From the NCBI GenBank assembly GCA_008087055.1, contig VIEA01000002.1, positions 396,764 through 460,763 of the forward strand: a stretch of DNA of 64,000 nucleotides, written 5' to 3'. Source of the DNA: Gammaproteobacteria bacterium LSUCC0096. GTDB taxonomy: Bacteria > Pseudomonadota > Gammaproteobacteria > Pseudomonadales > Litorivicinaceae. Position 1 is the stretch's first letter; the number at the start of each line of letters is the position of its first letter. This document shows, one piece after another, positions 1,807 to 26,553 of this stretch. Position numbers and translations under genes: made by a program. The notes under the pieces were generated by a model. The model did no database searches. It was given only the letters and a program-made list of their open reading frames with translations, and was not told where the DNA came from.

Positions 1807-1812
1807 AGCCGA

Positions 1813-2595: not shown

Positions 2596-2609
2596 GATGT
2601 TTTGCACCT

Positions 2610-7394: not shown

Positions 7395-7416
7395 CAGATC
7401 AAAACCTTTTTATTTG

Positions 7417-7944
7417 TTATAAGGCGATGCCGAATATTCCTGAGTCAAAGTAGACGCGCAGAACTTTCGAGAAAACGAGAGAAACGACCACTGGGAAAAC
7501 GCCAGCGAACAGGAGGATAGGGATTGGCTTTCGATACCCCCAAAGTCTTGGCATCACGAGACAGATCGTAATCATCGTCAAGAGCATGCCGAGATACGGC
7601 GAAGCCAAAACAATAGCAATCAAGAACCCGATTGTTAATTGGGTCAAAGGATGGACTGCTTCACTCCGGTCCTTATCAATATTCTTACCTTTCTTCGTCA
7701 GAAGGATGTGCTCAAACGGAAGAAGACAAGCTAGGAGACCGATAATCCACAATAATAATTGCGGATACATTGCAGGCTGAATATTTTGGGCGAACAGCGG
7801 AGATACCTCATCAAACTGAGTTGTTTCATAAAAGAGATATCCAACACCAGTCAGGATAATTGAGCTCACAACTAGATCAACTGGATGCACGAGCCGATTG
7901 GCTCGTGCTTCAGTTGATGGAGCTGTTGAATTTTGCGAAGTCAT
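7417..7944 (-). CDS. tctB: Tripartite tricarboxylate transporter, small membrane subunit (TctB family)
   Basis: This 175-residue protein has four predicted membrane helices: VDLVVSSIILTGVGYLFY, LLLWIIGLLACLLPF, the pair around LTIGFLIAIVLASPYLGMLLTMITICLV, and PIPILLFAGVFPVVVSLVF. That is the TctB pattern. It pairs with TctA in the membrane. The ATG at 7944 has AAAGGAG 7 bases upstream; an in-frame TTG just before it is not needed. The gene lies between tctC and tctA in the usual C-B-A order. TctB sequences diverge widely, so the call rests on topology and position more than on motifs. Confidence 0.9.
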   Translation of the reverse strand: MTSQNSTAPSTEARANRLVHPVDLVVSSIILTGVGYLFYETTQFDEVSPLFAQNIQPAMYPQLLLWIIGLLACLLPFEHILLTKKGKNIDKDRSEAVHPLTQLTIGFLIAIVLASPYLGMLLTMITICLVMPRLWGYRKPIPILLFAGVFPVVVSLVFSKVLRVYFDSGIFGIAL

Positions 7945-7962
7945 CAACGCGCTCCTTTAGCT

Positions 7963-9111: not shown

Positions 9112-9121
9112 TTGTCGACAA
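9112..9121. promoter_or_regulatory. GntR operator-like palindrome TTGTCGACAA before the lyase gene
   Basis: This perfect 10-bp palindrome sits immediately downstream of the candidate -10 element and 23 bases before the ATG at 9145. It has the same core as the 28-bp palindrome before the D-tartrate dehydratase gene. Confidence 0.6.
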
Positions 9122-9144
9122 TATTAAGCTTAAGGGTTGGTTTT

Positions 9145-9966
9145 ATGGTTCAGATGCAGTCATTGAATATTCTCCCTGGTGTCTACGACGGCCTTGGTGC
9201 ATCGATCGCGAGGCACGTGGGAGCCTCTGGGGTCTATGCAAGTGGTGGCGCAATTGCTCGCAGTTTGGGGTTGCCTGATCTCGGACTTGTTTCGATGACT
9301 GAAATGGCTGCGCGCTTGGAAATTATTGTGCGTGCGTTTGGTGGTCCGGTGATAGCTGATGGTGATACGGGATATGGGGATGTACAGCACGTTCGCCGAA
9401 TGGTTCAAATGTTTGAAGGATCTGGAATCCGAGGATTACATATTGAAGATCAGGATTTCCCGAAACGTTGCGGACACCTTGATGGGAAGTCTTTAATAAC
9501 CATTGATGCGATGGCTCGGAAGATTGAGGCAGCAGTAAACGCGCGCCTGTCTCCCGAATTTCTGATCATTGGTCGTACTGATGCCATCGCTATTGAGGGT
9601 TTCGATAAAGCGATTACTCGAGCTCAGGCAATGGTCGACTCAGGTGCAGATGTTGTCTTTATTGAAGCTCCAGAAACAAACGAGCAAATTGAATTAATTC
9701 CGTCGCTATTTGATGTGCCTGTGCTCATCAATATGTTCCCAGGAGGGAAAACCCCCTATACCAAGCCTGCCGATCTCGAGGCGTTTGGGTATCGGTACAT
9801 GATTGTCCCATCTGATTTGCAGCGTGCATGTATCCGCGCAAGTGAGGCGGTTTTAAGTGCAATCGTTAACGACGGAAATTCTGAGTCAGTTGCCAATTTG
9901 TTAAGCCCATTAGCTGACCGCGACCGTTTTGTTGATCAGGATGCATGGTTGGGGGAGGTGAAATAA
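9145..9966 (+). CDS. Isocitrate lyase/PEP mutase superfamily carbon-carbon lyase
   Basis: This 273-residue protein has the ICL/PEPM barrel. IADGDTGYGD (the metal-binding Asp pair) lies near residues 72-81, followed by HIEDQDFPKRCGHLDGKSLI near 102-121. The KRCGH motif carries the catalytic cysteine of true lyases (isocitrate, methylisocitrate and dimethylmalate lyases), which phosphonate-forming PEP mutases lack. Such enzymes split 2-substituted malates or isocitrates into pyruvate or glyoxylate plus a second acid. The ATG at 9145 has AAGGG 8 bases upstream; an earlier TTG at 9112 lies in the operator and is rejected as start. It is divergent from tctC and followed by the OCD-family gene. Next to PrpD-like and LeuCD-like genes, a methylisocitrate or dimethylmalate lyase type role is plausible. 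Confidence 0.88.
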   Translation: MVQMQSLNILPGVYDGLGASIARHVGASGVYASGGAIARSLGLPDLGLVSMTEMAARLEIIVRAFGGPVIADGDTGYGDVQHVRRMVQMFEGSGIRGLHIEDQDFPKRCGHLDGKSLITIDAMARKIEAAVNARLSPEFLIIGRTDAIAIEGFDKAITRAQAMVDSGADVVFIEAPETNEQIELIPSLFDVPVLINMFPGGKTPYTKPADLEAFGYRYMIVPSDLQRACIRASEAVLSAIVNDGNSESVANLLSPLADRDRFVDQDAWLGEVK

Positions 9967-9967
9967 C

Positions 9968-10939
9968 GTGGGTCGTATTCGAATTATCTCTGAGACTACT
10001 GTGCAGTCGTGTCTAAACGATAAGGTATCGGCGTGCTTCGATACCTGCGCCGCAGCATATCGGTATTACGGTCAGCGCGGTGCCGTGCTGTCGGAGCCGA
10101 GTTCTTTGTATCTTGAATTACCTGGTGAACAGTCAAAGAAATGTCGATTGAAGGGAGCCCATTTTGCCGATGGGGGTGTCGCTGGCTTTCGTTTAGCAAG
10201 CCCCGGCTCGTACTTCACCTGGGTGATTGACTCTGAGAGTGGGGAGCCAAAAGGGTTGGTCGCTGAGAACTGGCTACATCGGCGTCGAACTGCTGTAACA
10301 GGCGCTTTAACTTTGTCCTGGCTCAAGCCGAATATTGAACGTATCGCTCTCATTGGAGCGGGAAAGATTGGGTTTGAGTGTGCAATTGCACTGGGGCATG
10401 CTTTCCCGCAAGCGAGCATTGTGTTGGGTGCTCGAGATGAGGCAAAAGGATCAGCTTTTCAGAAATCATTACCTCCTGATTTAGCATCTCGCTTGAGTGT
10501 GCAGACAATTGAGTCGGCTGTCCGGACTTCTCAGGCTGTATTGACCATTACCAAAGCCGAGAAAGCGTTCGTTCGCGGTGAATGGCTGCAGGACAAGGCC
10601 ATTGCGTTATCGATGGGTGGGGTCCCTGAATTTGATTTCCGGACCTGGGAGCGCGCAGAGCATTTCATATTGGATGATATTGGGTACGCGCTAAAACAAG
10701 GCGATTTGCATCACTGGGTACGATCTGACGGATTAACCGTAGAGCAGATCGAATCAAGATTGACTGCACGAATCGGGGATGTCGCACTTGACCCCGAAAA
10801 ATATAGCGCCAACTGTGATGGTTTGACGCTCGCGGTGATTCAGGGCATGGCTGTCTGCGACGTGGCGATGGCTGGGCTGGCGTTGGCCTCTGCCGAAGCA
10901 GATGGCCTAGGCCAAGTTGTCGATTTGAGTTACTGTTAG
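9968..10939 (+). CDS. Ornithine cyclodeaminase/mu-crystallin family protein
   Basis: This 323-residue protein starts at GTG 9968 with GGAGGTGA 7 bases upstream and follows the lyase gene by one base. The family's N-terminal substrate region includes RLKGAHFADGGVAGFRLAS, and the Rossmann part has IALIGAGKIGFECAIALGHAF (dinucleotide loop, about residues 118-138) followed by VLGARDE. The family includes ornithine cyclodeaminase, alanine dehydrogenase (archaeal type), ketimine reductases and L-arginine or lysine cyclodeaminases. It may act on an amino or imino acid made by this island or by the PLP decarboxylase at the window start. Its stop overlaps the convergent TauD gene stop by four bases (TTAG). 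The substrate is unassigned. Confidence 0.87.
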   Translation: MGRIRIISETTVQSCLNDKVSACFDTCAAAYRYYGQRGAVLSEPSSLYLELPGEQSKKCRLKGAHFADGGVAGFRLASPGSYFTWVIDSESGEPKGLVAENWLHRRRTAVTGALTLSWLKPNIERIALIGAGKIGFECAIALGHAFPQASIVLGARDEAKGSAFQKSLPPDLASRLSVQTIESAVRTSQAVLTITKAEKAFVRGEWLQDKAIALSMGGVPEFDFRTWERAEHFILDDIGYALKQGDLHHWVRSDGLTVEQIESRLTARIGDVALDPEKYSANCDGLTLAVIQGMAVCDVAMAGLALASAEADGLGQVVDLSYC

Positions 10940-11778
10940 GCAGCCAGCGATTTGAGTTGTGTTCGATGCATCACGCGTCGGATAGATCCATCGAACGCAT
11001 CTCGACGATGCAAGACCAAGAGGTTTTGCCACATCAGTACATCCCCTACCTGCCATTCGTTAAACCATGTCCAAGCTGAATTGGTTGCGTGACTCCAGAG
11101 CTTATCGAGTAATAATTCACTTTCACTTAGTGGTAAGCCAAGAATATAAGCGTGGGGGCGACGGCCCAAGAAGAGCGCTTTTCGGCCATTTTGATTCGTC
11201 CACACTAGCGGGTGCCTGGCACCTGGTGTGTCACGAGGATCTGTGACTTCCGAATATCCTTTCCTTAGCATCCCTGCGCTATTGTGGGCTGCGTCATGAA
11301 TTAAGATTTTTCCTTCGATGGCTTCCTTTAACTCATTGGGTAGCGCGTCGTATGCTTTGATCATATTCGCGAAGTAGGTATGCCCTTGCCCAACGGGAAT
11401 TTCTAGCGCGTGTAAAATTCCAGCTTCAGGCGGTTTTTCAATATAAGTCATGTCCGCGTGCCAGACGGCTTCACCATCTCCCAGGTTTCCCATAGGTGTG
11501 CCATCTGCAGCTTTCACGTTTGAAATGACATTGATCTCCGGATATTCCGGTAAGAAAGTTATGCCATAGGGGTTCGGGCCAGGCGGATCAAGTTCTCCGA
11601 AATACTTGCTGAACCGGAGTAGGTCATCGTCATTGATCGATTGGTTTCTAAAGCGTATGACGAGATGCTCATCCCATGCCTCTTTGATGTTTTGAATGAT
11701 CTCGGGGCTAAGTGGTTTCCCAAGATCGATGCCATCTATATTGGCTCCAATATTTGGTGATAGTTGCGTGATCTCCAT
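10936..11778 (-). CDS. TauD/TfdA family Fe(II)/2-oxoglutarate-dependent dioxygenase
   Basis: The 280-residue protein shows the iron facial triad: His-x-Asp in AVWHADMTYIEKPPEAGILHA (about residues 99-119) and the distal His in LVLHRRDAFDG near 255, with the 2-oxoglutarate-binding Arg in RRVMHRTQLK. ARHPLVWTNQNGRKALFLG is typical of TfdA-like members. These enzymes hydroxylate sulfonates, phenoxyacetates, quaternary amines or other small acids with release of CO2 and succinate. The ATG at 11778 has GGAG 7 bases upstream and follows the enolase-family gene by one base, so it is the last gene of the leuC-leuD-enolase-tauD unit. With sulfur-anion exporters nearby a sulfonate substrate is possible, but that is inference. 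Confidence 0.9.
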   Translation of the reverse strand: MEITQLSPNIGANIDGIDLGKPLSPEIIQNIKEAWDEHLVIRFRNQSINDDDLLRFSKYFGELDPPGPNPYGITFLPEYPEINVISNVKAADGTPMGNLGDGEAVWHADMTYIEKPPEAGILHALEIPVGQGHTYFANMIKAYDALPNELKEAIEGKILIHDAAHNSAGMLRKGYSEVTDPRDTPGARHPLVWTNQNGRKALFLGRRPHAYILGLPLSESELLLDKLWSHATNSAWTWFNEWQVGDVLMWQNLLVLHRRDAFDGSIRRVMHRTQLKSLAA

Positions 11779-11779
11779 G

Positions 11780-12871
11780 CTAGTTCTCCGAATTTCCATA
11801 TGCTTCTACACGAACTGTTTGAGTGTTGATGACTTGCTGATTCAGAACTAAAGGCTCTGATTGTTTCAGCACCATGTGCCCATCTTCAAATTTGAGGTGT
11901 GGTTTGAGGATCCTGGCACCATCTTGGATTTTAAAACATCCGTTAAATTCGCCTGCCCGAGCGAGATATTTCTCTGAGACGAGCGCCTCTAAATAGCAAT
12001 TGATGTCTGAACCTAGGCCATCGCCAAGCACGATTTGAAGGCCTAGCTCATGCGCTCTTTCGATCGCTTCACATAAAGCGCTCACTGAGCCAAAGCGTTT
12101 GAGTTTGACTTTGCAAAAGCCGACTCCAGGCATTGTCGATGCGCGCTCAATGTCTGCGATGCTGCAGATCGGTTCATCTAACATTAAGGGGACAGGGGAT
12201 GCTTTTGCGACGCCGCCGTTGCCTTCCCAGTCATAGGTATCGCAAGGCTGTTCAAATAGTTCGCAAACCTTCGGGTCCAGTACTTGGCTGAGTTCAATTG
12301 CATCATGCATCGAATATGCACGGTTAGCATCGACACGGATGGTCCCTTGGTCCCCGAGGGTGTCTTGAATGATGTGAACTCTTTCCTTGTCTGCCGTCAC
12401 ATCTTTGCCGACTTTGATTTTGAATGTTCTAAATCCAAGTTTGAGTTTCTCATTCAGCTCATTTTCGATTTCGTCTCGCGTGTTTGCAGAAAAAGCAGTC
12501 AGAACTGGAATGCGAAGGTGGTCTTTCGGAGTCCAATACCCAGGTGCTTTGAGTTGATCAAGCGCGTTGAGGAGAGCGCTGGCGGCGACTGGGCTGTCGG
12601 ACCGCTTATCAGCTATTTGTTCAAAAGCGTCGATTATGTCTAATCCAATCATGTCTGCTGCCGAAGATGTGAGGAAAGACCATCCGCCCTCACGTGTTTC
12701 GGAACTGGACCCGGGGGAAATATGCTGCTCTCCGAATGCAATTTGCCCTGAGTCAGTCGTGATTGTGACAAGGTAAGGTTCGAACGACTCAAATGTCCTA
12801 TAGCTCAACACATAGGGTTTGATGAGTGGCAGGTCGAGATGCCGAACTTCGATACTTTGAATGTGATTCAT
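11780..12871 (-). CDS. Enolase-superfamily (mandelate racemase/muconate lactonizing type) enzyme
   Basis: The 363-residue protein has the N-terminal capping domain and modified barrel of the MLE subgroup. The Lys-x-Lys pair is in FRTFKIKVGKD (about residue 159), the metal ligands follow in IRVDANRAY, LFEQP and LMLDEP, and a second Lys-x-Lys-type strand is KVKLKR. Lysines on both faces of the barrel fit the muconate lactonizing, dipeptide epimerase and o-succinylbenzoate synthase group rather than the D-tartrate dehydratase group. The ATG at 12871 overlaps the leuD stop by ATGA. It abstracts a proton next to a carboxylate; the substrate is not recognisable. It is clearly distinct from the second enolase-family gene at 19337. 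Confidence 0.88.
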   Translation of the reverse strand: MNHIQSIEVRHLDLPLIKPYVLSYRTFESFEPYLVTITTDSGQIAFGEQHISPGSSSETREGGWSFLTSSAADMIGLDIIDAFEQIADKRSDSPVAASALLNALDQLKAPGYWTPKDHLRIPVLTAFSANTRDEIENELNEKLKLGFRTFKIKVGKDVTADKERVHIIQDTLGDQGTIRVDANRAYSMHDAIELSQVLDPKVCELFEQPCDTYDWEGNGGVAKASPVPLMLDEPICSIADIERASTMPGVGFCKVKLKRFGSVSALCEAIERAHELGLQIVLGDGLGSDINCYLEALVSEKYLARAGEFNGCFKIQDGARILKPHLKFEDGHMVLKQSEPLVLNQQVINTQTVRVEAYGNSEN

Positions 12872-13479
12872 GAGGTGATCCAAGGGAACGCTTTGCGGTA
12901 ATCGGACTCAAATTGAGTGATTGCATCATCGAACTCGAGCGATAGATCAATTTCATTTAATCCATTTATCAGGCAATGCTTTTGAAATGGATCGAGATCG
13001 AGTCCGATTTTTGTCCCAGCGGAGGTGATGAGAGCCTCTTCCGCAACATCGATCGATAATTCGGGATTTTCTGTCGTTGTTAGTTCAGTCTGAATTTGAT
13101 GTATGGCATCAGCATTGAGTCGCGCTGTTAACATCCCATTTTTCAAACAATTGGATGCGAATATTTCGCCAAAGCTTGGTGCGAAAATGGCCCGAAAGCC
13201 CGAATCGTAGAGTGCGTAGACCGCCCCTTCCCGAGAACTTCCTGAACCAAAATTTGGGCCCGCTACGAGAATCTTTGACTCGCTAAATTTTTCCTGGTTC
13301 AGAGGGAATTCGGTGCTGAGTTGCCCGTCGTCTGTGCGTCTGATGTCATGAAACAAATACTGCGCATATCCCACTGCACGAGGTTTTTTGATGAATCGCG
13401 CTGGGAACAGTTGGTCGGTATTGATGTTGGCAAGAGGCAGTGGAACTGCTCTCGATGTGAGCTTGATTAAAGGTTCCAT
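12868..13479 (-). CDS. leuD: 3-Isopropylmalate dehydratase-type small subunit (LeuD family)
   Basis: This 203-residue swivelling-domain protein has the family segments PLPLANINTDQLFPARFIKK and GPNFGSGSSREGAVYALYDSGFRAIFAPSFGEIFASNCLKNGML. Classical LeuD has SREHAPWAL; here it is SREGAVYAL, a paralog-like variation near the active site. It forms a heterodimer with the LeuC-type subunit, whose gene overlaps it by 13 bases. No leuA or leuB is adjacent; instead the pair is transcribed with an enolase-family and a TauD gene behind a site shared with the transport operon. It may therefore serve a catabolic hydro-lyase role (isomerising a malate- or citrate-like acid) rather than leucine synthesis. 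The name leuD denotes the family only. Confidence 0.85.
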   Translation of the reverse strand: MEPLIKLTSRAVPLPLANINTDQLFPARFIKKPRAVGYAQYLFHDIRRTDDGQLSTEFPLNQEKFSESKILVAGPNFGSGSSREGAVYALYDSGFRAIFAPSFGEIFASNCLKNGMLTARLNADAIHQIQTELTTTENPELSIDVAEEALITSAGTKIGLDLDPFQKHCLINGLNEIDLSLEFDDAITQFESDYRKAFPWITS

Positions 13480-14885
13480 GAGCTTGCCTCTGCATAGTTG
13501 CTAATGTTTTCAAATTGTCCAGTAATCGACGCAGCCGCTGCCATTGCAGGACTCACGAGGTGGGTCCTTCCTCCTTGGCCCTGTCGTCCCTCAAAATTCC
13601 GGTTAGACGTCGAGGCTGCGCGCTCTCCTGATCCGAGCTTGTCACCGTTGATCGCGACACACATTGAGCATCCTGGGGCAAGCCATTCGGCTCCGGCACG
13701 CTGAAATATTTCATGCAGACCTTCTTCTTCCGCAGCCCGTTTGACCTGTTCTGACCCAGGAACGATCATCGTTGGTATGCGGCACGATTGGTCGTTAAGT
13801 ACTTGTGCTGCGATCCGTAAATCCTCGAGTCGGCTATTTGTGCAGGAGCCGATGAACACGCGATCAAGTTGGATGGATTGAATCGATTGGTTTGCCGAGA
13901 GCCCCATGTACTCCAATGCACGAATCATGCGCCCTTGACGTTCTGAGTCAGCCTCCGATGCGGGATCTGGGATTTTAGACGTTACATCGACAACCATTTC
14001 TGGGTTCGTCCCCCATGTCACTTGAGGAACGATTGATGAAGCATCGATTTGAACCTCTCTATCAAAGGCTGCATCACTATCTGACTTGAGCGATGACCAA
14101 TGAGCGATGGCTTTTTCCCAGTCTGGACCAGTGGGAGCTAGCGGTCTGCCTTTCATGTAATCAAACACTTTTTGATCTGGGGCGATTAGTCCAGCTCGCG
14201 CTCCAGCTTCAATTGACATGTTGCAGACAGTCATTCTTGCTTCAACAGACAATTGTTCTACCGTGTCTCCGCCATATTCGACAGCGAATCCAACAGCACC
14301 GCCGCTGCCGATGGTTCTGATTAAAAATAGAATAAGATCTTTGCTTGAGACCCCGGGTCGCCTCTCTCCGTTGATCGTCACTCGCAATGTCTTGGGTTTT
14401 GAGCGCCAAAGCGTTTGCGTTGCCAGCACGTGCGCGACCTCAGACGATCCGATGCCGAATGCATATGCTCCCAAAGCTCCGTGAGTCGATGTATGTGAAT
14501 CAGCGCCCGCGATGACCAGCCCTGGCTGGGTAATCCCATATTCGGGGCCGACGACATGTAATATGCCTTGATAATCGTGCCCTATACCAAAGAGCTCAAT
14601 CCCATAAGCATCTGTATCAGATGCAATCAGATCCACCATGTTACGAATTTCAGGATCCGTGATGCCGTCAAGGCCGAGTTCTCGGTTTCGTGTTGGAACG
14701 TAGTGATCCGAGAAGGCGAATGCTTGGTTTGGATTGCGAACCGCGCGCTTTTCTCGCCTTATTTTGTCGAACGCATGGAACGAATTTTCCTGGAGTAACA
14801 GACGGTCAACGTAGATCAGTGATTCATGATCTCGATCAGTGACAACGTGATTTTTCCAAATCTTCTCAAAAAGGGTGGTGCCCAT
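13467..14885 (-). CDS. leuC: 3-Isopropylmalate dehydratase-type large subunit (LeuC family, aconitase superfamily)
   Basis: The 472-residue protein matches bacterial LeuC in length and layout. GADSHTSTHGALGAYAFGIGSSEVAHVLATQT lies in the first third, VFIGSCTNSRLEDL supplies the first Fe-S cysteine, and WLAPGCSMCVAINGDKL supplies the other two. The ending includes ASTSNRNFEGRQGQGGRTHLVSPAMAAAA. It binds a [4Fe-4S] cluster and dehydrates and rehydrates 2-substituted malates. It is the first gene of the leuC-leuD-enolase-tauD unit and is divergent from the tauE gene; an operator-like site lies 34 bases upstream. Biosynthetic isopropylmalate isomerase is possible, but the neighbourhood is catabolic. 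Confidence 0.9.
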   Translation of the reverse strand: MGTTLFEKIWKNHVVTDRDHESLIYVDRLLLQENSFHAFDKIRREKRAVRNPNQAFAFSDHYVPTRNRELGLDGITDPEIRNMVDLIASDTDAYGIELFGIGHDYQGILHVVGPEYGITQPGLVIAGADSHTSTHGALGAYAFGIGSSEVAHVLATQTLWRSKPKTLRVTINGERRPGVSSKDLILFLIRTIGSGGAVGFAVEYGGDTVEQLSVEARMTVCNMSIEAGARAGLIAPDQKVFDYMKGRPLAPTGPDWEKAIAHWSSLKSDSDAAFDREVQIDASSIVPQVTWGTNPEMVVDVTSKIPDPASEADSERQGRMIRALEYMGLSANQSIQSIQLDRVFIGSCTNSRLEDLRIAAQVLNDQSCRIPTMIVPGSEQVKRAAEEEGLHEIFQRAGAEWLAPGCSMCVAINGDKLGSGERAASTSNRNFEGRQGQGGRTHLVSPAMAAAASITGQFENISNYAEASSWNL

Positions 14886-15028: not shown

Positions 15029-15778
15029 ATGGGTGATATCGACTTTCTTTTTGTATTTCTGGTTGCGGCAGCGGCGTTTAGTTCAGCAGTTTTCCACTCG
15101 TTTTCTGGTTTCGCAGGTGGGCTTGTGCTTGCTGTGATGCTCGCTCCGCTTCTGGGGGTTAAAGAAACAGTCCCTGTCGTGGCAACAGCACTGATTATTA
15201 GCAACGTAGCGAGGATTTGGGCGTTTCGTAAATCTGTCGCAATCAAGGAATATTTTGCTGTGTTTTTAGCGGCACTTCCATTTATTGTGCTGAGTGCCTA
15301 CATCTATGTGTCCTTGCCAGTCGGAGTCGTTGCACTTGTTCTCGGTCTTTTCTTATTGATTTCTATTCCTTTGAATAGGACTCTCAAGAAGAAGGAAGTT
15401 AAGGTTGGTTTGAGAGGCTTGGCGCTAGCTGGTATCCCTTATGGAATTGTCTCGGGGAGCACTTTTGGAGCTGCAGTGATGCTTGCGCCTTTTCTCATCG
15501 GAGCCGGTCTTGCTGGTGAGACTATGATAGGAACTATTGCAATTCTTGGCTTTAGTTTGAACGTCACAAAAACAATTGTTTTCGGAATGTCCCCGCTGTT
15601 GACTTCAGAATTATTGACCATGGGTATTTTGGTTGGCCTCTGTACTATGCCAGGGGCCTATGTAGGGCGCTGGCTCGTTCGAAACACTTCAGTACGGGTG
15701 CATGCGCAATTTATGGAAATATTTATTGCTTGTGGTGGGTTGTTATTTCTCTATGAGGCATACCAAAACTGGGTTTAA
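15029..15778 (+). CDS. TauE/SafE family sulfite/sulfoacetate exporter-like membrane protein
   Basis: The 249-residue protein has seven to eight hydrophobic helices and the two repeated family segments, GFAGGLVLAVMLAPLLGVKETVPVVATALIISN in the first half and GIVSGSTFGAAVMLAPFLIGAGL in the second. TauE/SafE proteins export organosulfonate breakdown products such as sulfite or sulfoacetate, although many members move other anions. There is no clear ribosome site before the ATG at 15029: an operator palindrome occupies that position and the best purine run (AAGAGA) is about 20 bases away. A leaderless or nearly leaderless message is therefore possible. A TACATA element at 15011-15016 could be the -10 box. 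It is followed after three bases by the alpha/beta hydrolase gene. Confidence 0.85.
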   Translation: MGDIDFLFVFLVAAAAFSSAVFHSFSGFAGGLVLAVMLAPLLGVKETVPVVATALIISNVARIWAFRKSVAIKEYFAVFLAALPFIVLSAYIYVSLPVGVVALVLGLFLLISIPLNRTLKKKEVKVGLRGLALAGIPYGIVSGSTFGAAVMLAPFLIGAGLAGETMIGTIAILGFSLNVTKTIVFGMSPLLTSELLTMGILVGLCTMPGAYVGRWLVRNTSVRVHAQFMEIFIACGGLLFLYEAYQNWV

Positions 15779-15781
15779 TCC

Positions 15782-16627
15782 ATGACTGCTCATCCAACTC
15801 CTCCAGCTTCGTATAGTCAGATTCTCGACCGAGCATCGTCTGAGCGCATTATCGTTAATGGGTTGGGGGTTCAGCTCTATCGTTGGGGTAGTGGGCCGGC
15901 ATGTATCGTTTTATTACACGGTGGTTATGGCTCTTGGGCTCACTGGATTAAGGTCATTCCTCGGCTTGAAAGCTATGCGACAGTCATCGCGGCTGATATG
16001 CCTGGATTCGGGCGTTCTGATACTCCGGCTGAGCCACATACAGCTGAATCAGTTGCGGGCCCTCTGACTTCAGCTTTGACTGAATTGGTTGGCCAACAAA
16101 AAATCATACTGGCTGGATTTTCTTTCGGTGGCGCGATTGCAGGGCATGTGGCGTCCCTCATCGCATCGCAAATTGAGCATTTGGTTTTATTGGGCCCGGG
16201 TGGAACTGGTGCGCCGCGCGGTGACATGCCGGAGTTAATCAGGCGCACAAAAGAGATGAACCGCAAAGAGATCATTGAGGCTCATCGTAGAAATCTTGAG
16301 ATCTTGATGGTTAGAAACGCTGCGTGCATCGATGACCTTGCGCTTTACATTCAGGAAACCAACACAGGCATGCATCGGCTGAAAAGTCGTCCGATCTCTG
16401 CGACAGATACGCTTGCACGAGTATTGGTCGGTGCGCGTTATCCTGTCTCGGTATTGTTCGGTGAGTTCGATGCGTCAGTCGGTAAATATCGCCCAGAGCG
16501 TGAAGCTATCATGAGGCAGTCAGTGCCCCATGTAGAGATCGAGGTTGTCCCAAATGTTGGTCATTGGTTAATGTGGGAATCTGACCAGTTAGTCGCCGAC
16601 CGGCTGTTGGTTTTGCTCCCCAAATAA
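15782..16627 (+). CDS. Alpha/beta hydrolase fold protein
   Basis: The 281-residue protein carries the complete catalytic set. The oxyanion HGG is in IVLLHGGYGSWAHW, the nucleophile serine in LAGFSFGGAIAGH (about residues 114-126), the acid in VLFGEFDAS and the histidine in VPNVGHWLMWE. The short GYG-SWAHW loop and general layout resemble carbon-carbon hydrolases and lactonases of organic-acid degradation (for example enol-lactone or meta-cleavage product hydrolases), but the substrate cannot be assigned. It follows the tauE gene in the same unit. Its last 39 bases overlap the 3' end of the convergent nitroreductase gene. Confidence 0.87.
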   Translation: MTAHPTPPASYSQILDRASSERIIVNGLGVQLYRWGSGPACIVLLHGGYGSWAHWIKVIPRLESYATVIAADMPGFGRSDTPAEPHTAESVAGPLTSALTELVGQQKIILAGFSFGGAIAGHVASLIASQIEHLVLLGPGGTGAPRGDMPELIRRTKEMNRKEIIEAHRRNLEILMVRNAACIDDLALYIQETNTGMHRLKSRPISATDTLARVLVGARYPVSVLFGEFDASVGKYRPEREAIMRQSVPHVEIEVVPNVGHWLMWESDQLVADRLLVLLPK

Positions 16628-17434
16628 ACCCTGGCTTTCGCACATTTCTCTAAAGTCTGGGCGTTCGAGCACCGCTGTTTGTCGCGCGACATTATCGGAC
16701 CATGTACTTTGGTTTGGCATGCCAAATTTCTCTGGGTATCGTGCTTTTGGTGGTCCGGCTAGGCGGTTATATGTATCGTCATATTTATCAATTTCACTGA
16801 AATCGACCGGCTGGTAGGTGTCATGATGCACTATTACCGATTGTGGTAGTCGCGGTGATATTGATGGAGTCTCGCTTTGCGGATACCCAAATGCACATGC
16901 ACAGATGGGGAAAGCACCTCTTGGTAAATTCAAAAGCTTTGTAATAGCTTCACTCGATTCTCTAACTTTCGATATTGGGCAAGTTCCGATACCAATCCCT
17001 TCTGCGGCGGCAATCATAAAAGCGAGTGCGAGTGATGCATCCACGGTTGCATTAAGAAATGCGTCTGTTTGCTCCCAGCGAAATGTTTGGTTTCTTGCGC
17101 GGTTTATTTCTTGTGTTCGATGTGTGTCTCCGATAATGAAAATGAGCATTGGAGCTTCCAATGCCCAGCGAATCGATGGAAACATGTGAACGAGCTCTGC
17201 TCGAATGGACTCACTCTTTACATCGATAAAACTATATTGTTGTAAATTGGATTTGCTGGGAGCAGATTGGGCTGCTGCGAATAACAGCCGTTTCATATCA
17301 TCATTAATCGTTCGGTCCAGAAATGCTCTGCACGATTGATGTGATAGCAATGTATCAATCGTCCTTCCGCTTTCGATTTCTGGGATTGCTGAAGGTGAGC
17401 CATATCGCAAATGTTCAGTTATCTTTTTATTCAT
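16589..17434 (-). CDS. Nitroreductase family protein (NfsA/FRP-like)
   Basis: The 281-residue FMN-dependent oxidoreductase has the N-terminal phosphate-binding segment SHQSCRAFLDRTI, the AAAQSAPSKSNLQQYSFIDV stretch, the central AFMIAAAEGIGIGTCPISKVR (flavin contact) and a C-terminal NAD(P)H-dependent reductase tail with KFGMP and WSDNVARQTAVLERP. Members reduce nitro groups, quinones or flavins with NAD(P)H. It overlaps the rhodanese-repeat gene by ATGA and is probably co-translated with it. Its own 3' end overlaps the convergent hydrolase gene by 39 bases. Its natural substrate is unknown. Confidence 0.87.
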   Translation of the reverse strand: MNKKITEHLRYGSPSAIPEIESGRTIDTLLSHQSCRAFLDRTINDDMKRLLFAAAQSAPSKSNLQQYSFIDVKSESIRAELVHMFPSIRWALEAPMLIFIIGDTHRTQEINRARNQTFRWEQTDAFLNATVDASLALAFMIAAAEGIGIGTCPISKVRESSEAITKLLNLPRGAFPICACAFGYPQSETPSISPRLPQSVIVHHDTYQPVDFSEIDKYDDTYNRLAGPPKARYPEKFGMPNQSTWSDNVARQTAVLERPDFREMCESQGLFGEQNQQPVGD

Positions 17435-18984
17435 ATGTGAACCTTTTGGTAAAACGCTGTGAGATGCGATATCGGATGATCAAGTGGGTGATCAATCGGT
17501 TGCCAAGGAATCTCTCCATCGTCTTTCAGTGTCGGAAGAAGACTGTGTTCCCAGTCAAGGTATCCTTGTGCATGTTCCAGGTTTCCCTGGTGTCTGTCTG
17601 GAAAAAATAGCGCTTGGTCGACAGGATGAGATTCGAGGCTAATGGCGCATGAGTCGATATGTTTTTTGGGTATCGTATCGAAGGTGATGCAATGTCCATC
17701 CGATAGATTGAGTTCGTTAATGAGTGTCTCAGTGTGAGTGATTTGAGAGGGATTGCAAACAATCAGGTACCGACCTGATTTGGGTAATGTGTGGAATTGT
17801 GATCTGGGTATCCAATTCGAGCCGCTGAGTCGACTCGTTTTGAAGGCGTTACTTGAACGGATATCGATAATACGATCAGCGGATAACCACTGATCATTCC
17901 ATTCGAGGGGTTTGATAGTTGAGCGCTTGCGCGCGACCGGTTCTGGCGCCGACTCATCGCGTAACCAAGCGTCCCAGCCCATGCGACGCAGCCATAATAC
18001 GGACACGGCACAATCCAGTTGATTGGATCCTTGAACGACGATCGGCATATTGTGCGTACCCAAATACTGATCTGTGCTTTGGATTAGCGTGGTGGGAGAG
18101 ATCGCTTGATCGGTCGTCTGATCTTCGCCGACAGTGATGATTCGGAAGTGAGTCTTTGAATCTGTCCAGCTACTCTCACACTCTTTTGTGGCGATTGGTA
18201 GATTAAATTTTTCGATGAGATAGTTGGCGTGCTGACTCATCGGTTCTTCTGAGAACAGCTCATCTGCTGACTTATGGTTGTTGAATGAGCGAATCCCTCC
18301 TGCGAGCTCCCACCCCTGAGTGCCACCGGTTATGCAATAAATAGAGGCTTTGAAATCTTGGTCTGCCAAGGTCTGTGCTGCAATGATTCCGCGTGTTCGG
18401 CCTGCGCAATGAACATAAATTGAGCTATTGGTAATTGAGAGTGCTCCGAGCCTACTAGTAGAACAGTGAATTGAGTTAGGTAAGCTGAACTTTCGGTATT
18501 CCGTAAAAGGCCTGACATCGAATTGATACTGGGGTGGTTTCTTGATGGCGTTTTGCGGCGTAATGTTATTGATTTTCCCAGTGATTTCGACCCACTCACC
18601 GAATGCTTTGGATGGTGTGTACTCCCCGCCCCAGGTTGGGAGTTGGTGCATTTTCCATGCATTAAATCCTCCGTCGAGGATCCGTGGCGCTAGGCAAGTG
18701 GTGGTCTGAATTACTGCTGCGGCCCAATCCGTGAGTATTGGATTGTCCCCAATCACCAAGGCAATTCCAGCTTCGCCACCGAACAGTTGATTAATGTGTA
18801 ATTCAATGGAGTCGATAGGGGCGTTAACCGAGAATATGGGGTGCTCATCGACATAGGCTCTTCGATCGCGGACGTCAATGAACGCGATGCGTTGAGGTTG
18901 TCGTAGAAGCTCCAGTGCCTCATCAATCTGAATATGCTGAATATTATTGTGCGGTGCATTATTAGGCGTTACCATATTACTCAT
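17431..18984 (-). CDS. Four-module rhodanese-domain protein (sulfurtransferase-like)
   Basis: The 517-residue protein shows four rhodanese-like modules. Module 1 (about residues 15-120) has IDVRD and LDGGFNAW but no active-site cysteine (VIGDN). Module 2 (about 135-240) has FDVRPF, the active loop HCAGRTRG with Cys193 and ITGGTQGWELAGG. Module 3 (about 245-345) reads VVQGSNQ in place of the loop, without cysteine. Module 4 (about 360-460) has IDIRSSNAF and VCNPSQ with Cys410. Tandem inactive-active pairs are the usual rhodanese plan, here duplicated. It lacks a signal peptide and is probably cytoplasmic, moving sulfane sulfur. It heads a unit with the nitroreductase gene. No shared operator was found just upstream. 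Confidence 0.83.
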   Translation of the reverse strand: MSNMVTPNNAPHNNIQHIQIDEALELLRQPQRIAFIDVRDRRAYVDEHPIFSVNAPIDSIELHINQLFGGEAGIALVIGDNPILTDWAAAVIQTTTCLAPRILDGGFNAWKMHQLPTWGGEYTPSKAFGEWVEITGKINNITPQNAIKKPPQYQFDVRPFTEYRKFSLPNSIHCSTSRLGALSITNSSIYVHCAGRTRGIIAAQTLADQDFKASIYCITGGTQGWELAGGIRSFNNHKSADELFSEEPMSQHANYLIEKFNLPIATKECESSWTDSKTHFRIITVGEDQTTDQAISPTTLIQSTDQYLGTHNMPIVVQGSNQLDCAVSVLWLRRMGWDAWLRDESAPEPVARKRSTIKPLEWNDQWLSADRIIDIRSSNAFKTSRLSGSNWIPRSQFHTLPKSGRYLIVCNPSQITHTETLINELNLSDGHCITFDTIPKKHIDSCAISLESHPVDQALFFPDRHQGNLEHAQGYLDWEHSLLPTLKDDGEIPWQPIDHPLDHPISHLTAFYQKVHI

Positions 18985-19336: not shown

Positions 19337-20509
19337 ATGCGCATTACTGCAATCCACGATTCTGTCGAATCGATCGCATCAGATATTCAAAACGCCTATA
19401 TCAATTTTTCGAAAATGACCTGTTCGGTTGTTGCTGTTGTCACTGATCAAGTGATTGATGGCAAGCCTGTGGTTGGCTTTGGGTTTAATTCGAATGGTAG
19501 GTACAACGCCTCAGGAATTTTGAAAGATCGATTGATCCCGCGTCTTCTTGACGCTGACCCAGCCGACTTGGTCGGCCAGGATGGATTTCTGGACCCTCAC
19601 AAAGCCTGGGACATCATGATGACAAATGAAAAGCCTGGCGGTCATGGCGAGCGCTCAGTTGCGGTTGGTGTTCTCGATATGGCCCTGTGGGACGCTCGCG
19701 CCAAGATGCAGGGTATTCCTTTATATCAATTACTCGCTGACCGAGCTGGTAGAAAACCTGATTCAAAGGTTTGGGTCTATGCAGCAGGAGGGTATTACTA
19801 CCCCGGGAAAGACATTTCTGGGCTGCAAGACGAATTTCGTCAGTATCTGGATCTAGGCTATACGGTTTGCAAAATGAAAATTGGGGCCGCTGACCTTTTC
19901 CATGATTGTGATCGGATTGAGGCGGCTTTGAAGATTGTGGGGGAAGGGAATCTTTGCGTTGATGCAAATGGTCGATTTGATCTTGATACCACGCTTGCTT
20001 ATGCAGATGCACTGAAGCAATACCGGTTGTTTTGGTATGAAGAGGCTGGTGATCCATTAGATTTTGAAATTCAGGCGGCGTTGAGTGAAGCGTATGATCT
20101 ACCAACTGCGACAGGTGAAAACTTGTTTTCTCACCAGGATGCGCGCAACTTGGTCCGCTATGGTGGCATGCGTCCAGACATTGATTATCTGCAATTCGAC
20201 TGCGCGTTATCTTATGGGCTAGTTGAATATTACCGAACTCTTGGTGTTCTTGCTGAGTATGGCTGGTCACCGCGGCGAGTCGTGCCGCATGGTGGGCATC
20301 AGATGTCCTTGCACATCGCTGCAGGCCTCGGCTTGGGCGGCAATGAGTCTTACCCTGGTGTTTTTCAGCCGTTTGGAGGGTTTTCCGACGAGCTATCGAT
20401 CAAAGACAGTTATGTAGATTTGCCCACAGCACCCGGGCTTGGGCTTGAAAACAAAGCTAACTTCAGACAGATGCTGTCGCGTGCATTCGGTCATGTCCTG
20501 ACGGTTTAG
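19337..20509 (+). CDS. tarD: D(-)-tartrate dehydratase (enolase superfamily)
   Basis: The 390-residue protein closely follows the characterised Bradyrhizobium D-tartrate dehydratase. Matching segments are the IRNAYIDF-like IQNAYINFSKMT, VVGFGFNSNGRYNASG, MMTNEKPGGHGERSVAVG, VWVYAAGGYYYPGKD, CKMKIG with the catalytic Lys-x-Lys, CVDANGRFDLDT, WYEEAGDPLD, TGENLFSHQDARNLVRYGGMRPD and VVPHGGHQMSLHIAAGLGLGGNESYP with the catalytic histidine. The enzyme dehydrates D-tartrate to oxaloacetate using Mg2+. The gene is preceded by the 28-bp operator palindrome, and its stop overlaps the convergent YeiH gene stop by TTAG. The assignment is strong at family level; activity on a related 2,3-dihydroxy acid is not excluded. 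Confidence 0.92.
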   Translation: MRITAIHDSVESIASDIQNAYINFSKMTCSVVAVVTDQVIDGKPVVGFGFNSNGRYNASGILKDRLIPRLLDADPADLVGQDGFLDPHKAWDIMMTNEKPGGHGERSVAVGVLDMALWDARAKMQGIPLYQLLADRAGRKPDSKVWVYAAGGYYYPGKDISGLQDEFRQYLDLGYTVCKMKIGAADLFHDCDRIEAALKIVGEGNLCVDANGRFDLDTTLAYADALKQYRLFWYEEAGDPLDFEIQAALSEAYDLPTATGENLFSHQDARNLVRYGGMRPDIDYLQFDCALSYGLVEYYRTLGVLAEYGWSPRRVVPHGGHQMSLHIAAGLGLGGNESYPGVFQPFGGFSDELSIKDSYVDLPTAPGLGLENKANFRQMLSRAFGHVLTV

Positions 20510-21489
20510 ATGATCCAGTGGATGCCACAAATCACCCAGGTAGCTAGAAGAATTGTTTCAACAATAATCAGAGAAACAGATCGTATCCCGTACCGCGCGA
20601 TATCTTGCAGTGAAGTTTTTACTCCAAGTGCGGCAATAGCGGTTACCAAGAAAGTGCTTGAAGTGATGTTTGCCAGTTTGTTGATTTCTTGAGGGATGAA
20701 TCCAAAGGAATTGATCAACACAAAGCTGCAAAATGCGATTAAGAAATAGGGTATCGTCAGTTTGCTCTTCGATCTGTCTGACTGCTTTGAGATGACGAAG
20801 GCAATGAGCATTACGACGGGCACGAGGAGTGCCACTCGAAATAGTTTGATGATGGTTGCGGTATCGCCAGTATTTGAGTTCATGCCATAACCTGCACCAA
20901 CCACCTGTGCAACATCATGAATGGTTCCGCCAAGAAATATTCCAGACTCGAGGTCATTGAATCCGAGGCGCATTGCAATAATTGGATAGAGAATCATGGC
21001 TACTGTTGAGAGAGTCGTAACAGCCACAACTGTCACAATCGTCGCTTTTTCTGTCTCTCGGTTGTTTGGGAATACGCTGGAAATAGCAAGCGCGGCAGAT
21101 GCACCGCATATACCAACTGAGCCACCGCTGATGATGCCGAACGTTCGGGTACTCCCAAATGCGCGGGCGAGCAATAAACCAGCCAATAAGGATAATACGA
21201 TGCCCCCACTGATCCAGAACAAGATGTCATAGCTAAGGCCGGCGATATCTTCAAAGGTAATCCGAAAACCTAACAGCGCAACTCCTATTCTCAATATGGA
21301 TTTAGAGCTAATTTCGATTCCTGGCTGGTAGGTCAGTGTTTTGCTTAGAAAGCTCAATGCCATTCCGAGCAGCAGAGCAAATAACATTTGAGGCGCGCCA
21401 TAATACGATCCTAGAAAAGTCGCGATGAAGCCAATGAAGAAGCATAAAGCGACTCCTGGGATGAACTCTTTAAGCCTAGTCGTAATCAT
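20506..21489 (-). CDS. YeiH family (UPF0324) putative sulfate/anion exporter
   Basis: The 327-residue membrane protein has about ten hydrophobic helices and the YeiH signatures ISKSILRIGVALLGFRIT-type region, GGSVGICGASAALAISSVF and GIFLGGTIHDVAQVVGAGYGM. The family is annotated as putative sulfate or anion exporters and is often found near sulfur-compound catabolism. Its start at 21489 overlaps the dehalogenase gene end by 14 bases, so it is probably the last gene of the minus-strand gntR-HAD-yeiH unit. Its cargo is not established. Confidence 0.87.
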   Translation of the reverse strand: MITTRLKEFIPGVALCFFIGFIATFLGSYYGAPQMLFALLLGMALSFLSKTLTYQPGIEISSKSILRIGVALLGFRITFEDIAGLSYDILFWISGGIVLSLLAGLLLARAFGSTRTFGIISGGSVGICGASAALAISSVFPNNRETEKATIVTVVAVTTLSTVAMILYPIIAMRLGFNDLESGIFLGGTIHDVAQVVGAGYGMNSNTGDTATIIKLFRVALLVPVVMLIAFVISKQSDRSKSKLTIPYFLIAFCSFVLINSFGFIPQEINKLANITSSTFLVTAIAALGVKTSLQDIARYGIRSVSLIIVETILLATWVICGIHWII

Positions 21490-22186: not shown

Positions 22187-22836
22187 TGTGTTTGTTCCAT
22201 ATGAACGAGAAGATCATTAAATCGTTCACCTTGGATCATGACGTGTTGTCGTGAAACGAGGTCTGCCTTGTCGGCATTTCCCGATTCGAGAGCTTCGATG
22301 ATCTCATAATGCTCATTAAATGACTGAGGCATCCGCCCTCGAACGCGGAGCTGGAGACGCCTGAACGACTGAAGTCTTCTGCGAAGGGAGCGGGTCTCAC
22401 TTGCGAGAAAGCTGTTTCCGCATGCGGTGTAAATGCACTCATGGAATTCGACGTTTTTGTGATAGTAGAGGTCGCTGTCGTTCGCTTGAATAGCTTCTTC
22501 GCAGCCTTCATTTGCGGCCTTTAAAGCTGCGAGCTGTTGATCACTAATGCGGCGAGCGGCTAGTCGGGCACACATTCCTTCGAGTTCACTCATGACTTCG
22601 AACATTTCAATCATTTCTCGAAACGATGGTGCTTTGACAAAACAGCCGCGTTTCGGGATTTGGGTCGCCAGGCCTGACCCCACAAGCTGAAGAAGCGCCT
22701 CCCTTACAGGTGTACGGGATACTTGGAATCGTTCAGCCAATGAAGCTTCATCTAATTTTTCTCCATCTTTCAATTGCCCGGTCGCGATTTGTTCTTCGAC
22801 CCCTTGAAAGACTCGAGTGGCGGCTCGACTACTCAT
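22183..22836 (-). CDS. matR: GntR family regulator, FCD type, probable malonate regulator (MatR-like)
   Basis: The 217-residue protein has a winged helix at residues 5-72 (LAERFQVSRTPVREALLQLV, PKRGCFVKA) and an FCD domain with metal-ligand segments VEFHECIY, EHYEIIEAL and RQHVMIQG. It is divergent from a TRAP operon with malonyl-CoA decarboxylase and synthetase genes, matching the matR-mat arrangement of rhizobia. A TTGTATACGA site lies between the two start codons, similar in form to the reported MatR half-sites TCTTGTA/TACACGA. Malonate or methylmalonate is the expected effector. The matR name is inferred from context. Confidence 0.85.
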   Translation of the reverse strand: MSSRAATRVFQGVEEQIATGQLKDGEKLDEASLAERFQVSRTPVREALLQLVGSGLATQIPKRGCFVKAPSFREMIEMFEVMSELEGMCARLAARRISDQQLAALKAANEGCEEAIQANDSDLYYHKNVEFHECIYTACGNSFLASETRSLRRRLQSFRRLQLRVRGRMPQSFNEHYEIIEALESGNADKADLVSRQHVMIQGERFNDLLVHMEQTQ

Positions 22837-22862
22837 ATTAGAAAACTCGTTGCATCTTATTT

Positions 22863-22872
22863 TTGTATACGA
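22863..22872. promoter_or_regulatory. Probable MatR operator TTGTATACGA in the divergent malonate promoter
   Basis: The near-palindrome has a GTATAC centre and overlaps a GATAAT element (22871-22876) that could be the -10 box of the TRAP operon. TTGCAT at 22850-22855 is a possible -35 box, with short spacing. It differs from the TTGTNNACAA island sites in its centre and flanks. Confidence 0.55.
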
Positions 22873-22939
22873 TAATTTCTACATAGCATACATAAATATG
22901 CAAGCCGTAATAACTCATAACAATCGGCAGGAGCCTATG

Positions 22940-23923
22940 ATGAAAATAAAAGCCCTTTTTTCCGCTGCAATCGGCGCAGCATTTTTAAGCTCAGCGGCTA
23001 CAGCGACCGAGCTACGTGTCTCTCACCAATTCTCGTCAACCGACGTGCGTCATAAAGTCGCGCAAATGGTCGCCGATCATGTGAAAGAAGCGAATGTGGG
23101 ACTCGATATCAAAATCTTCCCATCGCAGGCGCTTTTCAAAGCGCGTGAACAGTATAAACCGTTGTCTCGGGGTCAGCTCGATATGACCGTGTTGCCACTG
23201 TCATATGCCGGTGGACAACAGCCAGCCTACAACCTTACGCTAATGCCTGGCCTTGTGAAGAATCACGATCATGCAGCGCGATTGAATTATTCGCCGTTTA
23301 TGCAAGAGATCGAGAAGATCATGGCCAGTGATGATGTGATGGTCCTTGTGCATGGATATCTCGCAGGCGGATTTGCCTCTACCGAAAAGTGTATTACCAA
23401 GCCAGCGGACGTGGCAGGTCAGCAGACGCGGGCGGCCGGTAAAGCATTTGAGCAGATGCTCGTCGGTGCGGGTGCATCGATTGCTTCGATGGCCTCTTCT
23501 GAGGTTTACAACGCAATGCAAAGCGGCGTGTTGCAAGCTGTTAATACATCTTCCTCATCTTTTGTTTCATTCCGTTTGTACGAGCAAGTTAAGTGCTACA
23601 CGCCAGCGGGCGCGAACGCACTATGGTTTATGTACCAGCCAATGTTGATGAACAAGTCTACATTTGATGGATTGACTGCAGCGCAACAAAAAGCACTGCG
23701 TGATGGAGCCAAGAAAGCCGAAGCCTTCTACTTGAGCGAAGCAAAGAAAGCAGATGCTGAGTCTGTGCGTGTGTTCAAAGAAGCAGGTGTTGAAGTGGCT
23801 GACATGAGTACAGCGGATTTCAACGAATGGCAGTCGCTCGCGAAGACGACTTCCTATAAAGAGTTCGTTGCAAACTACCCTGATGGGCAACGTTTATTGG
23901 ATCTTGCCTTAGCCGTTGAGTAA
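22940..23923 (+). CDS. TRAP transporter solute-binding protein (DctP family), probably malonate
   Basis: The 327-residue periplasmic protein begins at ATG 22940 with AGGAG 6 bases upstream; the adjacent ATG at 22937 is too close to the ribosome site. The signal peptide runs to about ATATA (residue 22). The mature protein has the DctP fold: ELRVSHQFSSTDVRHKVAQMVADHV, IKIFPSQALFKAREQYKPLSRGQLDMTVLP, and GQQTRAAGKAFEQMLVGAGASIASMASSEVYNAMQSGVLQAVN, in which the arginine binds the ligand carboxylate. Downstream genes for malonyl-CoA synthetase and decarboxylase point to malonate (the matP role in rhizobia). A stable hairpin follows the gene. Confidence 0.9.
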   Translation: MKIKALFSAAIGAAFLSSAATATELRVSHQFSSTDVRHKVAQMVADHVKEANVGLDIKIFPSQALFKAREQYKPLSRGQLDMTVLPLSYAGGQQPAYNLTLMPGLVKNHDHAARLNYSPFMQEIEKIMASDDVMVLVHGYLAGGFASTEKCITKPADVAGQQTRAAGKAFEQMLVGAGASIASMASSEVYNAMQSGVLQAVNTSSSSFVSFRLYEQVKCYTPAGANALWFMYQPMLMNKSTFDGLTAAQQKALRDGAKKAEAFYLSEAKKADAESVRVFKEAGVEVADMSTADFNEWQSLAKTTSYKEFVANYPDGQRLLDLALAVE

Positions 23924-23933
23924 TTGACGAATC

Positions 23934-23956
23934 CAGGCGGGGGTTCTCCCCGCCTG
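23934..23956 (+). terminator. Hairpin between dctP and dctQ-type genes (attenuator or mRNA stabiliser)
   Basis: CAGGCGGGG and CCCCGCCTG form a 9-bp GC-rich stem around a GTTCT loop, followed only by TTT. It lies between the binding-protein and permease genes, where such hairpins commonly lower downstream expression or protect the upstream message. Confidence 0.6.
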
Positions 23957-23969
23957 TTTGGAAGACATC

Positions 23970-24485
23970 ATGGAATTTTTTATACGTTGGGTGAATCGCT
24001 TGTCTCAAGCGATTGGGGTGTTGTCCGCCTTAATGATTGTGTTAGCAGTAGTCATAACCTGCCAGATGATTGTGGTTCGGTATTTCCTTAATGTATCCAC
24101 CGTCTGGCAGACCGAAGCTGTGGTGTACCTAATGATTTCAGCGACCCTTATGGGCCTTCCATACGTGCAGAAGCTGAAAGGCCACGTCAATGTGGACTTG
24201 ATTCCGATGTTGCTACCACCTGTCGCCAGGAAAATGGTTGTCTTGCTGAGTTTGTTCTGTGCGGTTGGCGTTCTCGCAGTGATGGCCTTTTACGGTTACG
24301 AGTTGACCCATATTGCCTTCACGCGTAACTGGAAGTCAGAGACAGTGTGGGCTTTTCCGTTATGGATTCCATATCTATCGATTCCCATGGGCCTCGGGCT
24401 GTTTTGCCTGCAACTTTTAGCTGATTTTTTTGAGACTCTGCGCACCAAGGCAGAGGACATCGTGATCGAGGGAGCAGGCCACTAA
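23970..24485 (+). CDS. TRAP transporter small membrane subunit (DctQ family)
   Basis: The 171-residue protein has four membrane helices. It includes the family motif around QTEAVVYLMISATLMGLPYVQKLKGHVNVDLI, where TEA and GHVNVDL are hallmarks of DctQ. It partners the large permease subunit in Na+-driven uptake. The ATG at 23970 follows a GGAAG-like site; an upstream TTG at 23958 is not needed. The stop overlaps the next start as TAATG, indicating coupled translation with the DctM gene. Confidence 0.9.
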   Translation: MEFFIRWVNRLSQAIGVLSALMIVLAVVITCQMIVVRYFLNVSTVWQTEAVVYLMISATLMGLPYVQKLKGHVNVDLIPMLLPPVARKMVVLLSLFCAVGVLAVMAFYGYELTHIAFTRNWKSETVWAFPLWIPYLSIPMGLGLFCLQLLADFFETLRTKAEDIVIEGAGH

Positions 24486-26544: not shown

Positions 26545-26553
26545 GAGGGCATT

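Follow-up and report, generated by a model that had tools for sequence, protein, structure and literature searches.

RHOD4, a sulfurtransferase homologue of Gammaproteobacteria bacterium LSUCC0096, is, judged by its sequence and its predicted fold, a distant member of the four-rhodanese family represented by the solved structure 1YT8. Only one of its four modules carries an active loop that is conserved throughout the family, and in the OM252 clade the protein has exchanged its usual gene neighbors for others. With a probability of about one half, we propose that RHOD4 is a single-site sulfurtransferase for sulfite and sulfane sulfur in the breakdown of organosulfur compounds, and that its oxygenase partner has been replaced in OM252. 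The window, i.e., the whole stretch of DNA analyzed here, comprises 64,000 nucleotides with a GC content of 47-51% and stems from a genome of 1,935,310 bases in 4 contigs. In the available text of PMC8269220, strain LSUCC0096 is assigned to the marine OM252 clade ("Candidatus Halomarinus", sister to Litoricola) with a GC content of 48.5% and is stated to have grown with thiosulfate as sole electron donor.

Architecture and family membership of RHOD4

The Pfam Rhodanese family matches RHOD4 in three stretches. The AlphaFold2 model, for which only 8 OM252 rows served as input, exhibits four alpha/beta repeats at moderate confidence (mean pLDDT 73.7, pTM 0.66). On the basis of sequence alone, RHOD4 is related to 1YT8 beyond chance (E 2.1e-28). 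The model aligns with 1YT8 over 466 residues (Z 27.4, rmsd 5.7), the next solved structure reaching a Z score of 13.0, and Foldseek returns an E value of 2.1e-27 for the same pair; identity in these structural alignments is 21-22%. Four tandem rhodanese modules, as put forward in an earlier note on this DNA, are thus borne out by Pfam, by the four repeats of the predicted model and by the match with 1YT8 along the length of the protein. The positions of the modules and of the surrounding genes are listed in Table 1.

Table 1. Features of the RHOD4 region; positions refer to the window, module boundaries are approximate
Feature	Position	Strand	Remarks
PEP mutase/isocitrate lyase superfamily protein, methylisocitrate lyase-like	9112..9966	(+)	
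Ornithine cyclodeaminase/mu-crystallin family protein	9968..10939	(+)	
TauD/TfdA-family dioxygenase	10936..11799	(-)	His114-x-Asp116 and His264 present
Enolase-superfamily protein, muconate cycloisomerase-like	11780..12883	(-)	
LeuD-type small subunit	12868..13479	(-)	
LeuC-type large subunit	13467..14885	(-)	Second LeuC, 54% identical, elsewhere in the genome
TauE/SafE-family sulfite exporter	15029..15778	(+)	
Alpha/beta hydrolase	15782..16627	(+)	Convergent with nitroreductase
Nitroreductase-family protein	16589..17434	(-)	ATGA-coupled to RHOD4; nearest solved relatives YcnD, NfrA1, NfsA
RHOD4, four-rhodanese sulfurtransferase homologue, 517 aa	17431..18984	(-)	Intact ORF; Pfam, sequence, fold
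RHOD4 module 4, residues 350-450	17635..17937	(-)	Loop variable
RHOD4 Cys410 codon	17755..17757	(-)	Position variable across the family
RHOD4 module 3, residues 241-345	17950..18264	(-)	Loop without cysteine
RHOD4 module 2, residues 125-240	18265..18612	(-)	Conserved, predicted active module; starts with SKAFGE linker
RHOD4 module 2 active loop, Cys193-Ala-Gly-Arg-Thr-Arg198	18391..18408	(-)	Identical in 62/62 family proteins
RHOD4 module 1, residues 14-124	18613..18945	(-)	Loop without cysteine
Enolase-superfamily sugar-acid dehydratase-like protein	19337..20509	(+)	Neighbor in most OM252 loci
YeiH-family putative sulfate exporter	20506..21489	(-)	Only in some OM252 loci (L031, L032)

Members of the 1YT8-type family have four rhodanese-fold modules in succession within about 520-540 residues, an arrangement that RHOD4 shares. 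A linker of the form S-K-x-F-G-E after module 1 and a Y-L-x-W-E motif near the C-terminus are invariant in 13/13 rows and are also present in 1YT8. The latter is a thiosulfate sulfurtransferase from P. aeruginosa, which we take to be PA2603, and resembles RHOD4 in whole-length fold, module order, the CAGRTR and SKAFGE motifs and GYLDWE near the C-terminus. In the module-4 loop, CNPSQI of RHOD4 is aligned against CGSSLL of 1YT8. The 1YT8 structure has been out since 2005, so the four-module architecture was already known. According to the earlier note, an architecture that is both common and characterized would speak against its reading: the architecture is indeed widespread and structurally solved, but neither an enzyme assay nor an assigned reaction for the four-rhodanese family was found in our literature search. 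That search also retrieved no paper mentioning "1YT8" or combining "rhodanese" with "four rhodanese domains", and PA2603 was not matched in the main text of PMC9765439.

Other rhodanese proteins are less similar. Two-domain TST/MST enzymes such as SseA and bovine rhodanese share the rhodanese fold with RHOD4, which however has four modules. The two-module rhodanese-like protein 6MXV from Francisella aligns to RHOD4 modules 1-2 (224 residues, Z 12.1) but, unlike RHOD4, has only about 250 residues. EanB, an ergothioneine synthase with rhodanese domains, appears in the fold-match lists of RHOD4 with an rmsd of about 12-13, indicating that its arrangement differs, and no sign of EanB-type activity was seen in RHOD4.

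Active sites and origin of the modules

In RHOD4, Cys193 sits at the loop position of module 2 and Cys410 at that of module 4, while modules 1 and 3 lack a loop cysteine and other cysteines, e.g., Cys97 and Cys325, are situated off the loops. Active loops were compared in 62 proteins, consisting of 51 others and 11 from OM252 (one per carrier genome, matched by coordinates, with same-genome repeats omitted). The module-2 loop reads CAGRTR in all 62. A cysteine at or beside the module-4 loop position is present in 36/62 proteins (9/11 from OM252 and 27/51 others); it is missing in two OM252 proteins and in 24 of the others, 22 of which have a substitution and 2 of which are devoid of module 4. 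The typical sulfurtransferase loop pattern, CX4R, occurs at the module-4 loop in 0/62 family proteins. Cysteines in the loop region of module 1 are restricted to 1/11 OM252 and 2/51 other proteins, and in that of module 3 to 0/11 and 1/51, respectively. The alternation of cysteine-free and cysteine-containing loops claimed by the earlier note consequently describes the window protein correctly but does not extend to the family, and of the two modules that it considered active, module 2 alone is conserved as such. As far as can be judged from the sequences, the family pattern is one of a single constant active module, module 2, combined with three variable modules. Module 4 may be active where its cysteine has been kept, as in RHOD4.

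In two-domain TST/MST enzymes, an inactive module precedes the active one, and RHOD4 had been read as a duplicated version of such an enzyme. Simple duplication of a two-module unit should yield 1-3 and 2-4 as the top pairs in a comparison of module profiles. In this test, which is weak at such divergence, the scores were 98.5 for pair 1-4, 88.8 for 1-2, 85.8 for 1-3 and 73.3 for 2-4 with all rows, and 93.5, 85.9, 85.7 and 81.7 in the same order when OM252 was left out; the equally weak comparison of OM252-only profiles gave no significant pair. Superposition of two-domain TST/MST structures on the whole RHOD4 model with Foldseek, again a weak test, was poor (rmsd about 17). Thus, with 1-4 as the best pair and a poor superposition, both from tests of little power at this divergence, the duplication finds no support. 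Comparison of the module profiles with ten rhodaneses of the LSUCC0096 genome did not reveal a clear parent. This genome contains 15 rhodanese matches in 1.94 Mb, 13 of them above the Pfam cut-off; three of the 15 are RHOD4's own.

Distribution and phylogeny

The family profile matches 44 of 397 sampled Pseudomonadota genomes (requested completeness at least 90%), distributed across 25/232 genera. These are the LSUCC0096 genome itself, 33 others (33/396) with full-length homologues and 10 genomes of genus g170 that match over a three-module length. The narrow OM252 profile A1 yielded matches in only 2/368 other Gammaproteobacteria genomes, and the figure of 33/396 therefore depends on profile and sample. 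Among relatives, a single-sequence search found the gene in 11/22 genomes of the genus, including LSUCC0096, and in 0/74 outside it. The latter number does not show absence, since the family profile detects the gene in 9 genomes belonging to the same order. Plasmid sequences contribute 84 matching records, 47 of which cover at least 80% of the query. Among viral contigs, 23 stretches fit a pattern, and none encodes a relative of RHOD4. Two of the 10 genomes of genus g170 were inspected (L099, L102); they encode a shorter form without module 4 and have no thiol dioxygenase gene within about 8 kb.

In a maximum-likelihood tree, for which rows exceeding 600 residues were trimmed to the last 560, full support is obtained for a grouping that unites the 11 OM252 proteins, excludes all 51 others and is set off by a very long branch. 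The inner branches flanking the drawn root amount to 3.17 and 2.02 changes per column; as midpoint rooting was used and letter composition differs, the exact position of this root is unsure.

Partner genes in other lineages

Flanking sequences were retrieved for 35 of the 43 non-self carriers, the 8 omitted ones being g170 genomes with the three-module form. The resulting 49 non-OM252 loci comprise 40 genome stretches, 5 of which are second copies, and 9 plasmid stretches chosen from the 84 records. Of these loci, 38 encode a thiol dioxygenase at a distance of up to about 8 kb, and in the remaining 11 none is found nearby. In 29/49 loci the dioxygenase gene directly adjoins the four-rhodanese gene on the same strand, with no more than 340 bases between the aligned edges. 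Dioxygenase and four-rhodanese protein even share one open frame in 2/15 checked pairs (L101, 8019-10199, and the second copy in L037, 5398-6612), and length and phase point at two further single-frame cases (G253 C93 and G416). We found a cystathionine beta-lyase-like gene in 11/49 loci and a TauE gene in a single one, which is the source of a TauE marker. Two further homologues were inspected beyond the 49 loci, one of which is accompanied by a thiol dioxygenase and neither by a nitroreductase, such that a nitroreductase like that next to RHOD4 occurs in 0/51 loci of other lineages.

A comparable gene arrangement is described in the accessible part of PMC5373536 for the mercaptosuccinate region of Advenella, consisting of genes for a LysR regulator, the dioxygenase Msdo, cystathionine beta-lyase, a rhodanese-related sulfurtransferase and an amino acid ABC transporter. 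The gene sets of loci L041 and L042 come close to it. The rhodanese-related protein of that region, MIM_c37440, probably belongs to the RHOD4 family, judged by gene order only, but the OM252 block contains neither the dioxygenase nor the cystathionine beta-lyase that accompany it in Advenella. Deletion of the PA2603 homologue (tst) in P. protegens CHA0 did not significantly affect 3-mercaptopropionate, as far as the available text of PMC12947264 goes.

A thiol dioxygenase is the usual, though not a defining, partner of the 1YT8-type family, and is rarely detected in OM252. The thiol dioxygenase profile A3 gave a match in only 1/11 carriers of this clade, a weak one (E 4e-9) located on a different contig. 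As a control, the same profile matched 5/6 carriers, 4 of those 5 having supplied profile rows, and 16/18 other carriers that had supplied none, one of them weakly. Three of these 24 other carriers gave no match to A3 anywhere in their genomes (G309, G334 and G179), and OM252 is hence not the sole exception. A search with one dioxygenase sequence found nothing in the 22 genomes of the genus (0/22, run without positive control). Of three family dioxygenases, PF05995 recognizes one barely above its cut-off and fails to match two; it is thus a poor probe for these enzymes, which is why A3 was used in its place. PF05995 has no match in the LSUCC0096 genome.

The nitroreductase and the conserved block in OM252

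Stop codon of rhod4 and start codon of the nitroreductase gene overlap as ATGA. The coupling pointed out by the earlier note is confirmed and proves to be conserved among the carriers of the genus, as the order RHOD4, nitroreductase, alpha/beta hydrolase is kept in 10/10 other OM252 carriers, with the aligned edges of the first two separated by a few bases in 8 and by 36 and 68 bases in 2. Where the OM252 loci reach far enough, they continue in the same order with genes for TauE, LeuCD, an enolase-family, a TauD-family and an ornithine cyclodeaminase-family protein and the methylisocitrate lyase-like protein. Most genes of the block encode carbon enzymes without an evident role in sulfur metabolism. 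In locus L030, a GntR gene (5396-5846) was matched as two overlapping pieces, resembling a frameshift in that assembly. The nitroreductase scores 138.9 with the NCBIfam model for NfsA (NF008033), below the cut-off of 223, and matches 228 plasmid records. Given the nitroreductase-free loci of the other lineages, the protein says little about the general chemistry of the family, and the reductive sulfur-transfer step that had been derived from its presence is not supported.

The TauD-like protein scores 142.4 with the NCBIfam model for taurine dioxygenase (NF007104; cut-off 313) and is nearly equidistant from phenoxypropionate (116 bits) and taurine dioxygenases (113 bits). His114, Asp116 and His264 presumably are its iron ligands, as in the TauD family. 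Orthologues of the block TauD (identity at least 70%) reside in 8/11 OM252 carriers and those of the block TauE (at least 77%) in 9/11, and each is found in 0/11 non-carriers of the genus, which contain other TauD-family genes at 33-39% identity. The carriers without the TauD orthologue (G003, G005 and G021) are represented by genomes that are 60-68% complete. The OM252 carriers form one clade, and these counts do not represent independent events. Moreover, tauE is stated in the available text of PMC8269220 to be present in all OM252 genomes studied, so it is only the block orthologue and not the exporter function that follows the block. With TauE in a single locus outside, the link to an exporter rests on OM252.

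Possible function of RHOD4

From these observations we infer the catalysis of RHOD4, its direction and substrate and the role of the flavoprotein as follows. Within module 2, Cys193 of the CAGRTR loop would accept sulfane sulfur as a persulfide and hand it on. Modules 1 and 3, having lost their cysteine, may act as a scaffold or offer docking surfaces, and catalysis would not depend on module 4. In most Pseudomonadota carriers, thiol dioxygenase would convert organic thiols to sulfinates, from which sulfite is released. The four-rhodanese protein would then handle the sulfur, in the simplest case by combining sulfite and persulfide to thiosulfate or by catalyzing the reverse reaction. As a thiol dioxygenase goes undetected in nearly all OM252 carriers and RHOD4 is encoded there in a block with TauD, TauE and nitroreductase, the same sulfite/sulfane-sulfur job may be performed there on a different organosulfur substrate, and RHOD4 possibly feeds the thiosulfate oxidation reported for LSUCC0096. 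The main doubts about this proposal arise from the prevalence of carbon enzymes in the block and from the score of the TauD-like protein below the taurine dioxygenase cut-off. A more far-reaching version, which we regard as speculative and unlikely, is that the OM252 proteins make up a separate deep subfamily whose partners changed from thiol dioxygenases to a 2-oxoglutarate-dependent oxygenase together with a flavoprotein of the nitroreductase family. This would amount to a new organosulfur route, in which sulfur released by the oxygenase is converted via RHOD4 to thiosulfate and burned by the cell's thiosulfate oxidation, while the flavoprotein reduces an intermediate, either a persulfide or a disulfide.

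Other functions are conceivable. RHOD4 could have arisen by duplication of a two-domain sulfurtransferase and use both Cys193 and Cys410 as working sites, with the coupled nitroreductase releasing the persulfide by reduction. The presence of both cysteines in the window protein and in 9/11 OM252 proteins fits this idea, as do the ATGA coupling and the adjacency of the two genes in all ten other carriers. Still, it appears highly improbable to us because the module-4 cysteine is missing in two OM252 proteins and in nearly half of the others, the profile scores do not pair modules 1-3 and 2-4, and the nitroreductase is confined to OM252 among the loci compared. It is just as improbable that RHOD4 supplies sulfur for a cofactor, e.g., the molybdenum cofactor of a sulfite-oxidizing enzyme. 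Module 2 has a weak match with the rhodanese part of a MoeB model (41.5 against a cut-off of 449), but no cofactor-synthesis family was found among the window proteins scanned (part of the window's genes), and the other lineages link the family to thiol dioxygenases. A cofactor-sulfur role of this kind has been suggested for a rhodanese from Variovorax paradoxus B4 in the accessible part of PMC5373536.

The block may also be a catabolic island for carboxylic acids, degrading a branched or substituted dicarboxylate by means of LeuCD, the enolases, the methylisocitrate lyase-like protein and a tricarboxylate transporter. RHOD4 would then have a minor role in sulfur metabolism and handle, together with the nitroreductase, a cofactor or by-product. 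The carbon enzymes that make up most of the block, the breadth of the TauD family and the very deep branching of the OM252 proteins agree with this possibility, which we nevertheless hold to be rather unlikely in view of a catalytic loop that is unchanged in 11/11 OM252 proteins and of a TauE-type exporter as part of the block.

With its altered partners, the OM252 branch represents a variant of a known architecture and deserves a modest follow-up. That this branch manages without the usual thiol dioxygenase suggests that RHOD4 is more than a helper of that enzyme and opens a way to study its own chemistry. Should an organosulfur compound be the substrate of the block, OM252, a cosmopolitan marine clade able to grow on thiosulfate, would have an additional source of sulfur.

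Two further gene groups are located in the window. The stretch from 22817 to 29335 contains genes for a TRAP transporter, an Asp/Glu racemase-like protein, malonyl-CoA decarboxylase and malonyl-CoA synthase and resembles a block for the use of malonate. Positions 1105 to 8955 harbor a second carboxylate block with genes for a GntR regulator, enoyl-CoA hydratase, a type III CoA-transferase, an MmgE/PrpD protein, an SDR and a TctABC transporter.
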